Source: Streptacidiphilus rugosus AM-16 (GTDB lineage: Bacteria; Actinomycetota; Actinomycetes; Streptomycetales; Streptomycetaceae). From it: a stretch of DNA of 64,000 bases. A program made the position numbers and the translations under genes. The notes beneath the pieces are model-generated. The model was given only the letters and a program-made list of their open reading frames with translations, searched no databases and was not told where the DNA came from. Below are positions 36,762 to 40,884 of the stretch, piece after piece; the stretch's first letter is position 1; each line of letters begins with the position of its first letter. The stretch covers positions 1,922,001 through 1,986,000 of the forward strand of contig NZ_JQMJ01000004.1 of assembly GCF_000744655.1 (NCBI RefSeq). Direction: 5' to 3'.

Positions 36762-39437
36762 TCACCAGTTCACCGGCAGGTTCGCCGGGGCCGCGCCGGT
36801 GGGGGGAGTCTGCAGGGTCTTCAGTGCGAACTCCATGACCTGCTTGAAGACCGGCCCGCACAGCTGACCGCCGAAGTGCGCGCCCACCGGCTTCTGGATC
36901 ACGCAGGAGACGGTGACCCTGGGCCGGTCGGCGGGAGCGAAGCCGATGAAGGAGGCGGTGTAGCCGCTGTAGCCGGTGGCGGTCGCCCGGTTGGCCGTGC
37001 CGGTCTTCCCCGCGACGAGATAGCCGGGGATCTTCGCGCTGGTGCCGGTCCCCAGCTCGCTGCCGACGACGGACTGGAGCATCGCCGCCAGCGAGGACGC
37101 GGTCTGCGCGCTGACCACGCGGGTGGTCGCGGGCGCGGGCGCGGGCGTGTACCGGCCGTCGGGTCCGGTGGTCCCCTCGACCAGACTCGGCGCGATCCTG
37201 ACCCCACCGTTGGCGATGGTCGAGTACACCGAGGTGGTCTGCAGCGCGTTGACGGCCAGGCCCTGGCCGAAGGGGATGGTGTACTGCTGCGAGCCGTTCC
37301 ACTTGTCGGGGGTGGGCAGAATGCCCTGGGTCTCCCCGGGGAACCCGAGCCCTGAGGGCTGTCCGATGCCGAACTTGGTCAGGTAGTCGTAGAGGACCTG
37401 GTTCGCCTGCTGCTGGGTGCTGCCCAGATGCTCGGCGGCGAGGATGGTGCCGATGTTGGAGGACTGCGCGAGCACGCCGTTGAGGGTGAGCTGCTCGGTG
37501 CCGTGCGCGACGTCGTCGTGGAAGACCCGGTCGGACCTGGGCAGCGAGCCGGGCACGGTGACGTGGGTGAGCGGCGTCGCGACGTTCTGCTGCAGCACCG
37601 CCGCCATGGTCATCAGCTTGCTGACCGAGCCGGGCTCGTAGGCGTCGCTGAGGGCGGGGTTCCCGATCGCGGCGGGGTCGGCGTGGGCGAGGTCGTTGGG
37701 GTCGAAGCCGGGGGCCGACGCCATGGCCAGGATCTTGCCGTTCGTCACGTCCTGCACGATCACGTACCCGCCGAGGGCCTGGCTCTTGGCGACCTGGTCG
37801 GAGATGGCCTTCTGCGCCTCCCACTGGATGTCGCTGTCCAGCGTCAGCCGCAGGCTCGAACCCGGCACCGGGGCCTGCTCGTGCTGGCCGCCGGCCGTGG
37901 GCACCTCGCGGCCGTTGGCCTGGGCGTACACCTGCTTGCCTTCGGTGCCCTTGAGCAGTTTCTCGTACTGCTGCTCAAGGCCTCCGGAGCCGACGCCCTC
38001 GGCGTTGACGAACCCCAGCACGTTGGCGGCGAGGCCGCCGTCGGGGTAGACGCGCTTGTCGTGGCGGGTGTGGAAGACCGAGGCGAGCGGGTTGGCGCAG
38101 GCGGCGTCGACGCGGCCGGTGTCGCCGGCCTTCTGCGCGAGCAGGTTCTCGGTGAGGCAGTGGCCCCGGGAGGCGTTGTCGGCGAGCTTGGCGCTGAGGG
38201 CGCTGATCTGGTTCCAGGTCTGCGGGGTCTGCTGACGGATCAGCAGGCGGTACATGTCCTTGGAGTTCTTCGCGGTCAGCGCGGCCGTGAGGGCCTGCGG
38301 GTCCATGCCCAGGATCGGCGCGAGCAGCGCGGCGGCCTGGGCGGGACCGCCGGTGACGTGCAGCTGCTCGGGGGTGAGCATGGTCGGGTCGGCGGTGATG
38401 TCGTAGGCGGTGACGGTGGTGGCGAGGACGTTGCCCGCGGCGTCGGTGATCGCGCCGCGCTGGGCCGCGAGCGGGGTGGTGACGTAGCGGTTGGCGCTGG
38501 CCTCGTCGGCGAGCGCGGTGGAGTCCAGGAACTGGATCTGCACGAGCCGCCCGAAGAACAGCGCGAACACCGTCCCGAGCGCGACCACCATCAACCGCAG
38601 CCGCTTCCGCGGCTCCCCCAGCCGCAGCACGACACCCCCTCCGGCCCGCGCGTACCCCTCCGCCCGCACCCCCACCCGCCGCCCGGGCCCCGAGCCCCGA
38701 CCCCCGGAACCCCCGCGCGCAGCGCTGCCGCGAACGGAACCTGCGGCGGAGCGTGCAGCCGAGCCCCGGCCGCCCCCGCCGCCGGCGGCACCGGACGGAC
38801 CGCTCGAACGCGAGCCTCCGGCCGCGCTGCGCGAGCTGTAGCCGGCCCGCGCACCACCGGACCGAGGCGCCGGGGCGGAACCCCGGCCGCCGTCCTGCCC
38901 GCGCGGGCCGCCCCCACCGTAGGAGTCCTGGTCGCCCCCGCGTGCGGCCCCGCCGCGCGCGGAACGCGCAGCCGAACCCCGACCGCCCTCGCCGCCGGCG
39001 GCACTGGACGAGCCGCTCGAACGCGAGCCTCCGACAGCACCACGCTGGGCGCCGTACCCGTCCCGCGCAGCACCGGAGCGGGGCGCGGGGGCAGAACCCC
39101 GGCCACCGTCCTGCCCCCGCGCAGCGCGCGAGGCGGAACCGCCGGCGGAACCAGCAGCAGAACCCCGACCACCCTCACCGCGCGAGCCTCCGACAGCACC
39201 ACGCTGCACGCCGTACCCGTCCCGCGCGGCACCGGAGCGCGGCGCAGGGGCGGAACCCCGGCCACCGTCCTGTCTGCGCGGGCCGCCGCCGTAGGCGTCC
39301 TGGTCGCCGCCGCGTGCAGCGCCGCCGCGAGGAGAACCTGGGGCGCCGCCCTGGCCGCTGCCCTCACCGCGCGGAGCGCCCGGGCGGGCGGGGCGAGGGG
39401 GTCGGGGGTCGCGGGGGTCGCGGGGGGTCTGGGGCAT
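36762..39437 (-). CDS. ftsI: Septal transpeptidase FtsI (PBP3 type) with long repetitive N-terminal tail
   Basis: 891-residue class B penicillin-binding protein cross-linking septal peptidoglycan with FtsW. A single membrane helix lies at about 280-303, far from the start. A dimerisation domain follows, then the transpeptidase with SVSK (Ser604), SSN (659-661) and KTGT (811-814). Residues 1-279 are Gly/Arg/Ser/Ala-rich and predicted disordered. They contain three copies of a QDGGRGSAPAPRSG(A/G)AR unit near residues 56, 109 and 181. ATG 39437 lies 15 bases after the ftsL stop, which supports it. A GTG just before the helix (near residue 270) could give a short form. Confidence 0.92.
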   Translation of the reverse strand: MPQTPRDPRDPRPPRPARPGAPRGEGSGQGGAPGSPRGGAARGGDQDAYGGGPRRQDGGRGSAPAPRSGAARDGYGVQRGAVGGSRGEGGRGSAAGSAGGSASRAARGQDGGRGSAPAPRSGAARDGYGAQRGAVGGSRSSGSSSAAGGEGGRGSAARSARGGAARGGDQDSYGGGGPRGQDGGRGSAPAPRSGGARAGYSSRSAAGGSRSSGPSGAAGGGGGRGSAARSAAGSVRGSAARGGSGGRGSGPGRRVGVRAEGYARAGGGVVLRLGEPRKRLRLMVVALGTVFALFFGRLVQIQFLDSTALADEASANRYVTTPLAAQRGAITDAAGNVLATTVTAYDITADPTMLTPEQLHVTGGPAQAAALLAPILGMDPQALTAALTAKNSKDMYRLLIRQQTPQTWNQISALSAKLADNASRGHCLTENLLAQKAGDTGRVDAACANPLASVFHTRHDKRVYPDGGLAANVLGFVNAEGVGSGGLEQQYEKLLKGTEGKQVYAQANGREVPTAGGQHEQAPVPGSSLRLTLDSDIQWEAQKAISDQVAKSQALGGYVIVQDVTNGKILAMASAPGFDPNDLAHADPAAIGNPALSDAYEPGSVSKLMTMAAVLQQNVATPLTHVTVPGSLPRSDRVFHDDVAHGTEQLTLNGVLAQSSNIGTILAAEHLGSTQQQANQVLYDYLTKFGIGQPSGLGFPGETQGILPTPDKWNGSQQYTIPFGQGLAVNALQTTSVYSTIANGGVRIAPSLVEGTTGPDGRYTPAPAPATTRVVSAQTASSLAAMLQSVVGSELGTGTSAKIPGYLVAGKTGTANRATATGYSGYTASFIGFAPADRPRVTVSCVIQKPVGAHFGGQLCGPVFKQVMEFALKTLQTPPTGAAPANLPVNW

Positions 39438-39452
39438 GGTTCGGTGGCTCCG

Positions 39453-39890
39453 TCAGTGGCCGGAGGGCTGGGTCGCGGGCATGGCCGTCGGAGTGCTCGG
39501 GTGCGGCGAGGAGGGGGCCGAGGCCGAGGGCGAAGCCGTCGGGGACGGTGCGGCGGGGAGCGGGGAGGGGGCGCCCAGGGTCCTGCCGTTGTCCGTCAGG
39601 AAGGCCGGGTTGCCGCTCGGCACCATGCCGAGGCCCCGGGCCCGCGCGGCGAGCGCGTCCGGCGCGGACCAGCCGTCGATCTGCTGCTGCAGGCCCTGCC
39701 GCTCGTTCTGCAGGGACGTCGTCTGCCGCTGGAGCTTCGAGACCGTGAACCCGCCCTGGCTCAGCGCCGTGTTCAGCATCAGCAGCGCGATCAGGCCGGT
39801 GGCCAGCAGCACCATCACCAGCAGCGCGAACGGCCCCCGCCCCGCCTTCGCGGAGCGACCCGCGCCTCCCCTCCCGACTGCCACCTGCAC
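39453..39890 (-). CDS. ftsL: Cell division protein FtsL
   Basis: 145-residue bitopic divisome protein. A basic N-terminus, one membrane helix (about residues 20-42, FALLVMVLLATGLIALLML) and an extracytoplasmic leucine-zipper-like coiled coil (KLQRQTTSLQNERQGLQQQI) match FtsL. A Pro/Ser-rich tail follows. GTG 39890 or 39884 is preceded by GGGAG; the frame is open further up but overlaps rsmH. It sits between rsmH and ftsI, the canonical place. Confidence 0.9.
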   Translation of the reverse strand: MQVAVGRGGAGRSAKAGRGPFALLVMVLLATGLIALLMLNTALSQGGFTVSKLQRQTTSLQNERQGLQQQIDGWSAPDALAARARGLGMVPSGNPAFLTDNGRTLGAPSPLPAAPSPTASPSASAPSSPHPSTPTAMPATQPSGH

Positions 39891-39909
39891 GCACTCCCAT
39901 CGACGTCGA

Positions 39910-40884
39910 TCACTGCCCGGCGCGTTCCCTGATTCTCTCCACCGCCCGCATCCGCACCGGCTTGGCACGGCGGTTCTCGGCGAGTTCCTCCTCGGTCGGC
40001 AGCTCCGCGCCGCCGCGCGTCAGCAGCTTGAGTCTCGGCTGGTGCTCCTCCGGCACGACCGGCAGTCCGGGCGGGGCGGTCGTGGCCGCGCCCTGCGCGA
40101 AGAACCCCTTCACCAGCCGGTCCTCCAGCGAGTGGTACGAGAGCACGACCATCCGGCCGCCGACCGCCAAGGCGTCCAGCGCGCCGGGAATGGCCCGTTC
40201 CAGCACCGACAACTCCCCGTTGACCTCGATCCGCAGGGCCTGGAAGGTGCGCTTCGCCGGGTTGCCCCCGGTCCGCCGCGTCGCCGCGGGAATCGCGTTG
40301 CGCACCAACTCCACGAGACGCGCGCTGCGGGCGAACGGTTCCTTGTCCCGCTCCCGCACGATCACCGAGGCGATCTTCCCGGCGAAGCGCTCCTCGCCGT
40401 AGACCTTGAGGATGCGGGCGAGCTCGCCGTGCGAGTAGGTGTTCAGCACCTCCGCCGCGCTGATCCCGACCGTCTGGTCCATCCGCATGTCCAGCGGCGC
40501 GTCCTGCGCGTAGGCGAAGCCGCGGTCCGCCTCGTCGAGCTGCATGCTGGAGACGCCCAGGTCGAAGAGGGCGCCCTGGATCCGGTCGACGCCGAGCCCG
40601 GCCAGCACCTCGGGGATCTCGTCGTAGACCGCGTGCACCAGCGTCGCGCGCTCGCCGAAGGGGGCCAGCCGTTCACCCGCCAGGCGCAGCGCCTCGGGGT
40701 CGCGGTCGACCGCGACCAGGCGGGCCTCGGGGAACTCGCGCAGCAGCGCCTCGCTGTGGCCGCCGAGCCCGAGCGTCGCGTCGACCACGACCGCGCCGGG
40801 CGCGGCCAGCGCGGGGGCCAGCACCTCGAGGGTGCGCCGGAGCATCACCGGGACGTGCTTCGCGTTGTCCGCGGCGGAACTCAT
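39910..40884 (-). CDS. rsmH: 16S rRNA (cytosine1402-N4)-methyltransferase RsmH
   Basis: 324-residue SAM-dependent methyltransferase (formerly MraW), acting on C1402 of 16S rRNA. SAM site [14 protein letters not shown], the specific motif [19 protein letters not shown] and the C-terminal [11 protein letters not shown] are intact. ATG 40884 follows AGAGAGG by 7 bases. First gene of the dcw transcript; no mraZ precedes it. Confidence 0.96.

Follow-up and report, generated by a model that had tools for sequence, protein, structure and literature searches.

An extra-long, repeat-built cationic tail on FtsI of Streptacidiphilus rugosus AM-16 as a candidate electrostatic tether

FtsI is the essential crosslinking enzyme of the division septum and has been studied mostly for its domains outside the membrane. 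The present analysis deals with the N-terminal cytoplasmic tail of FtsI in Streptacidiphilus rugosus AM-16, whose gene lies in a 64,000-nucleotide (nt) stretch of contig NZ_JQMJ01000004.1 (hereafter the window). The closest described systems are mycobacterial, and they are summarized here from the available parts of the respective papers. The cationic tail of mycobacterial FtsK (nFtsK, net charge +23) was found to bind cardiolipin as well as phosphatidic acid, and it did not shift DNA (PMC13277299). In Mycobacterium tuberculosis FtsQ, an Arg/Ala-rich cytoplasmic segment binds acidic lipids as well as the GTPase domain of FtsZ (PMC10036325). For mycobacterial ChiZ, FtsQ and FtsI, it was proposed that their charged disordered regions associate with anionic membranes and with each other (PMC7355643). 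A contact between FtsI and Wag31 reported earlier in mycobacteria was not confirmed by two-hybrid assays, in which the cytoplasmic FtsI domain was included (PMC9878328). The available part of a paper on the phosphorylation of PBP2 in Streptomyces coelicolor has no bearing on tails (PMC4416010). In the open-licence PMC literature, no paper on long FtsI tails rich in Arg-Gly (RG) was found, an absence that carries little weight.

The FtsI tail in the window comprised residues 1-276 (38610..39437, minus strand), as judged from composition and the AlphaFold model. It was rich in Gly, Arg, Ala and Ser (G 31.2, A 17.0, R 15.6, S 12.7, P 8.0 and K 0%), and its 43 Arg were scattered along the chain, giving a net charge of +27. 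The original prediction of a long, repetitive and cationic cytoplasmic tail ahead of the membrane helix was borne out, as was its count of three repeat units. According to the repeat comparison, the unit QDGGRGSAPAPRSG occurred at residues 56-69 (39231..39272), 109-122 (39072..39113) and 181-194 (38856..38897), always on the minus strand, and the three copies were exact at the protein level and embedded in larger repeats. The further claim that the repeats are nearly identical in DNA stood for one pair of the larger repeats (91% identity over 100 nt) and failed for the third copy (70%). A second repeat family, D2 (GGSRSSG..AAGG.GGRGSAARS), had its copy A at 38959..39045 and its copy B, in frame with copy A, at 38746..38832, both on the minus strand. 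The QDGGRGSAPAPRSG copies were dispersed and not tandem, because Tandem Repeats Finder detected no array in the tail. Matches elsewhere in the same genome were also sought for the tail repeat and were ruled out, with no other match at E <= 1. The Pfam/NCBIfam search with full-length FtsI gave matches from residue 324 onward only, and the tail was without a known domain. In an AlphaFold2 model built from 18 alignment rows (mean predicted local distance difference test score, pLDDT, of 44.9), the tail was devoid of secondary structure and a helix spanned residues 276-303. Composition and this low-confidence model hint that the tail may be unstructured. As in cationic disordered divisome tails, its position is N-terminal and cytoplasmic and its charge strongly positive; the disorder is predicted. 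We give an even chance to the reading that this is an extra-long cationic FtsI tail that was grown by duplication, kept by selection and used as an electrostatic tether.

The start of the window ftsI was ATG 39437. A GGAG ribosome-binding-like site was located 10 nt before it (39448..39451, minus strand) and was conserved in the sister genomes compared. The pattern GACGGAG...ATGCC.CAG and the N-terminus MPQ[PT]PR[DE]P were found in the window genome (G000) and in sisters G002, G004, G006 and G007. The offsets of the tail repeats were all multiples of 3, and 4/4 non-redundant pairs were in frame. The differences between repeat copies at codon positions 1, 2 and 3 were 3/104, 6/105 and 25/104, respectively (Fisher P 4e-7; 25/104 at the third position versus 9/209 at the first two), and overlapping repeat families gave an agreeing third-position result. 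A noncoding or misframed repeat would not show such offsets and differences; therefore, the tail is translated and its peptide constrained, and the conclusion from the sequence that the 276-residue tail is real holds. Moreover, Trp and Cys together numbered 0 in the tail, whereas codon-position shuffles gave 16.3 +/- 2.8, and the tail frame held 0 stops, against 2.0 in the same shuffles. Amino-acid composition was considered as a proof of the tail and set aside as weak, for the codon-position shuffles nearly matched its Arg count and net charge.

The start-context scan identified an internal GTG (residue 270; 38628..38630, minus strand) as a possible short-isoform start, with GGAGG at 7 nt upstream. 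The original prediction had pointed to a GTG just before the helix as a start that would do away with the tail. If translation began at GTG 38630, then FtsI would have a tail of 7 residues, and the upstream frame would be an annotation artefact that is never made into protein. The GGAGG sequence speaks for this explanation. However, the GTG was present in only 2/7 clade members at a poorly conserved site, whereas the upstream ATG, its GGAG and the N-terminus were conserved, and the in-frame repeats with their third-position excess indicate that the upstream part is translated. We consider an artefact very improbable. As a canonical Shine-Dalgarno sequence (GGAGG) precedes GTG-270, a short isoform is possible in the window species, and a minor second product may be formed there beside the long form. 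Neither of the two sister tails with a complete sequence (220 and 103 residues) showed a frameshift, the other event raised by the original prediction.

Tail lengths in Streptomycetaceae were evaluated on 84 distinct tails with a usable FtsL neighbour. Start codons were assigned by rule, and no core match was obtained for five loci. This set and a set of 95 distinct tails exclude loci whose contigs were broken, that contained Ns, or that had no in-frame start next to ftsL. The 84 tails ranged from 38 to 308 residues with a median of about 80, and 35/84 had at most 66. Lengths of 200 were reached by three tails (308, 276 and 220), the window tail being the second longest. The entries of 151 (L084) and 99 (L091) residues are probably too long, since inserts separate ftsL from ftsI in both. 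Most Streptomyces tails had 54-66 residues, and those of Kitasatospora and its neighbours had 69-172. In a tree of 44 FtsI cores, the window fell among seven Streptacidiphilus species that form a clade with full support. The three measurable tails of this clade had 276, 220 and 103 residues, and the comparison of close relatives, suggested by the original prediction, thereby revealed strong variation between species; the contigs of the other four members ended inside the tail. The sister clade had 42-80 residues in 5/6 rows, and the sixth row contained an N run. The window's repeat units were absent from the sister-species tails. The 308-residue tail belonged to Actinacidiphila acididurans (L088), which was located across the tree from the window, and carried its own GRGG-type repeats. 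These were in frame in 6/6 pairs and had a third-position excess (76/220 vs 35/446, P 5e-17). By its repeats and its place in the tree, the long RG-repeat tail of L088 is independent of the window tail.

Lengths in public assemblies are affected by the tail itself. Among the 80 named loci (L038-L117), contigs ended within 300 nt upstream of the FtsI core in 25, at 300-3900 nt upstream in 0 and within 3.9 kb downstream in 2. The downstream rate predicted about 0.2 breaks near the 5' side of the core, compared with the 25 observed. Two further loci of this group had N runs inside the tail. For G002 and G007, contigs from either side of the break could be identified, one ending 59 or 54 nt into the tail and the other starting about 40-50 residues ahead of the core. 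Across Streptomycetaceae, the ftsI tail is a hotspot of assembly breakpoints. Hence, public tail lengths are biased, perhaps against the longest tails, and with about 1/3 of draft loci ending a contig in the tail, FtsI N-termini are often missing from public streptomycete genomes.

The C-terminal outside tail of FtsL (open frame 39453..39968, minus strand, from the open frame list) was used as a control within the operon, as it is also of low complexity and nearly as rich in guanine plus cytosine (GC) as the FtsI tail. The net charge per residue was higher for the FtsI tail than for the FtsL outside tail in 84/84 operons. Arg accounted for 22.9% of the former and 3.7% of the latter, at GC contents of 0.858 and 0.818, respectively. 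Furthermore, the net charge of the FtsI tails increased with their length (rho 0.93, 84 tails). The conserved property of FtsI tails is the positive charge on the cytoplasmic side, while length varies. The preserved charge and the range of about 40-300 residues in one family (about 400 in others) provide a natural series for tests of tail function.

A class-wide sample of 40 actinomycete loci outside Streptomycetaceae was also examined, of which 14 were picked for large open frames and the rest came mainly from assemblies of few contigs. Starts were uncurated, and the membrane helix of L261 was misplaced by the script. FtsI tails of 205-398 residues were found in 12/40 loci, a value that is not a frequency because of the 14/40 selected for large open frames; in the first 16 loci (L228-L243, mainly few contigs), 6/16 had at least 205 residues. 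The tail of L241 (217 residues) contained a GGRGSGGRGS run, and that of L248 (398 residues) contained GRDSGRDS and RGRSTPGRDEGERP repeats. The third-position test was applied to nine of the outside-family tails and was clear for L248 (P 2e-5); the other eight had too few repeats or differences. Long RG-rich tails thus occur in several families, and the window tail is therefore exceptional for streptomycetes and of an ordinary type for actinomycetes. The earlier claim of normally much shorter tails in streptomycetes is correct for Streptomyces but does not extend to actinomycetes generally.

Nucleic-acid binding is a property of RG-rich tails in other systems. The window tail contained 19 RG dipeptides, slightly above the 13.4 expected by shuffling (P 0.03), and 5 RGG. 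With this RG content and its net +27, the tail could bind nucleoid DNA or RNA and couple septal synthesis to chromosome clearance. We hold such a role to be improbable, given that the full-length query returned no family match for the tail and that nFtsK, a cationic tail of net +23, did not shift DNA in the available part of its report (PMC13277299). The aromatics of the window tail were 6 Tyr only, and every Tyr adjoined Gly (3.1 expected, P 0.017), whereas 65/84 family tails had no aromatic at all. Together with the 43 Arg distributed along the chain, these Gly-flanked Tyr could act as stickers, with Gly, Ser and Ala as the spacer, and gather FtsI at the septum by clustering or condensation. 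However, the long tails of other families were mostly poor in aromatics (0 to 6 in the 12 examined), and L088 had fewer than three. Clustering is likewise given a small chance, although the Gly-adjacent Tyr and their rarity elsewhere keep it conceivable for the window species. In a broader proposal, RG-rich repeat tails of 200-400 residues would have evolved repeatedly, the Gly-flanked-Tyr tail of the window species would serve as a sticker-and-spacer chain for condensing or scaffolding the septal wall synthase on anionic membrane or nucleoid, and draft-assembly breaks would have hidden this means of concentrating septal synthesis. Taken as a whole, this proposal is doubtful.

An electrostatic tether to membrane and partners is regarded as the most likely function. 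The tail would have been lengthened by in-frame duplication of Gly/Arg/Ser-rich segments, and its peptide would afterwards have been maintained by purifying selection. The arginines along the flexible chain may keep the inner face of the FtsW-FtsI synthase in the vicinity of the anionic lipids of the septal membrane, and the same arginine-bearing tail may stay close to cytoplasmic division partners. Extra length would add reach and multivalency. The direct basis of this reading consists of the start, frame, repeats, charge, length distribution and independent recurrence. Binding of lipids and partners is what we infer by analogy with the described tails, and the usefulness of the extra length is a guess. 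Several observations weigh against the tether. Long tails are not required, as lengths of 42-276 residues occurred within one genus. Charge density dropped as the tails lengthened (rho -0.61, 84 tails), so that extra length does not simply equal extra charge. The window tail had 43 Arg and a net charge of 27, near the base-composition expectation from shuffles (38.6 +/- 3.7 and 21.5 +/- 4.1, respectively); the charge of a single tail is thus no proof of selection, and the case for charge rests on the operon comparison. The acid count of the SepF linker fell with FtsI tail length (rho -0.62, 24 genomes), which relatedness can explain. In this comparison, 24/30 genomes were used, after five without a pattern-found SepF start and one without a measured tail were dropped. 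Co-expansion of the acidic SepF linker was considered as well and ruled out, as the linker net charge was -8 to -10 whatever the tail length in the 24 genomes.

The main rival is tolerated expansion, in which a short cationic tail would be enough and the other 200 residues would have arisen as repeats multiplied in a GC-rich segment free of structure, retained only in frame and without disruptive residues. The length range of 42-276 in one genus and 103-276 in one clade suits this explanation. Most of the amino-acid make-up of the tail follows from base composition alone, the tails are DNA that is difficult to assemble, and the repeat units are not common to the sister tails. By contrast, the third-position excess in the window, L088 and L248 points to a constrained peptide and not to frame alone, Trp and Cys are absent from the window tail, and long RG-type tails recur in several families. 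Tolerated expansion is a serious possibility, and we believe it more likely to be wrong than right.

The identity of the gene was established from its open reading frame (891 residues; 36762..39437, minus strand), Pfam, a solved relative and the neighbours. The dimerisation domain of penicillin-binding proteins (PBPs; PF03717) covered residues 324-513, and the transpeptidase domain (PF00905) covered residues 557-869. The best solved relative was PbpB (entry 6kgh, E 5.9e-82). S604-x-x-K607, S659-S-N661 and K811-T-G813 were among the invariant alignment columns; we take these to be the FtsI/PBP3 motifs SxxK, SxN and KTG. The membrane helix was read from the sequence at about residues 282-300 (38538..38594, minus strand), in the region of the AlphaFold helix. 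rsmH and ftsL were found directly upstream, as in the division and cell wall cluster. A search of the same genome gave a single match at 1346.7 bits, the second being at 64.7 bits, and other PBPs were distant. The named relatives were Streptacidiphilus species with 77-87% identity. The gene is FtsI (PBP3), the septal class B transpeptidase, by domain, motif, gene position and single copy.

Further observations concern codon usage and the locus in other genomes. The third-position GC of both independent long tails was low (0.77 in the window and 0.74 in L088, vs 0.99 in the first 200 core codons), and in the window tail this stemmed from GGT and GCT codons, which are rare in the core. The tail was below its own core in third-position GC in 92/95 tails. 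In the same genome, a class A PBP (L218) had an Arg/Gly/Pro-rich cytoplasmic N-tail of about 115 residues with a GGGRGAGGAGGGGRGG stretch, and Arg/Gly-rich tails thus occur beyond FtsI. Inserts between ftsL and ftsI were present in L091, L099, L113, L146, L155 and L181; those of L099 and L113 contained the ftsI start region a second time, and others held recurring GC-rich segments. In L112 (Streptomyces cahuitamycinicus), the ftsI frame entered unrelated sequence exactly at the tail, probably through misassembly. The FtsI match of L020 (G013), from a 76% complete genome, had two in-frame TGA codons, which are probably sequencing errors. L021 (G015) had a tail of about 200 residues, and the ATG overlapping the ftsL stop was out of frame with the FtsI core, owing to either a sequencing indel or a real frameshift.

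The window tail can be compared with the known systems, as far as the available parts of the papers describe them. nFtsK is likewise a long (up to about 150 residues), Arg/Ser/Gly-enriched and cationic N-terminal cytoplasmic tail of a divisome protein; it belongs to another protein, its length varies modestly in the genus, and repeats are not among its described features (PMC13277299). The N-terminal region of M. tuberculosis FtsQ is similarly Arg-rich and largely disordered (PMC10036325); unlike that region, the window tail has no predicted helix in its low-confidence model. Mycobacterial FtsI (PBP3), the same septal transpeptidase, also has a charged and disordered cytoplasmic region ahead of its membrane helix, whereas the window tail has 276 residues and is Gly/Ser-rich and repeat-built, with repeats being undescribed for the mycobacterial region in the available part of the paper (PMC7355643). 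The tail of L088 resembles that of the window in its size (about 300 residues), Gly-rich GRGG repeats, net charge (+34), low third-position GC and in-frame repeats that differ synonymously. It differs in its unrelated repeat sequence, GTG start and fewer than three aromatics. The window tail is an extra-long version of the charged tail that is common in actinomycete FtsI, a notable variant and not a new kind.
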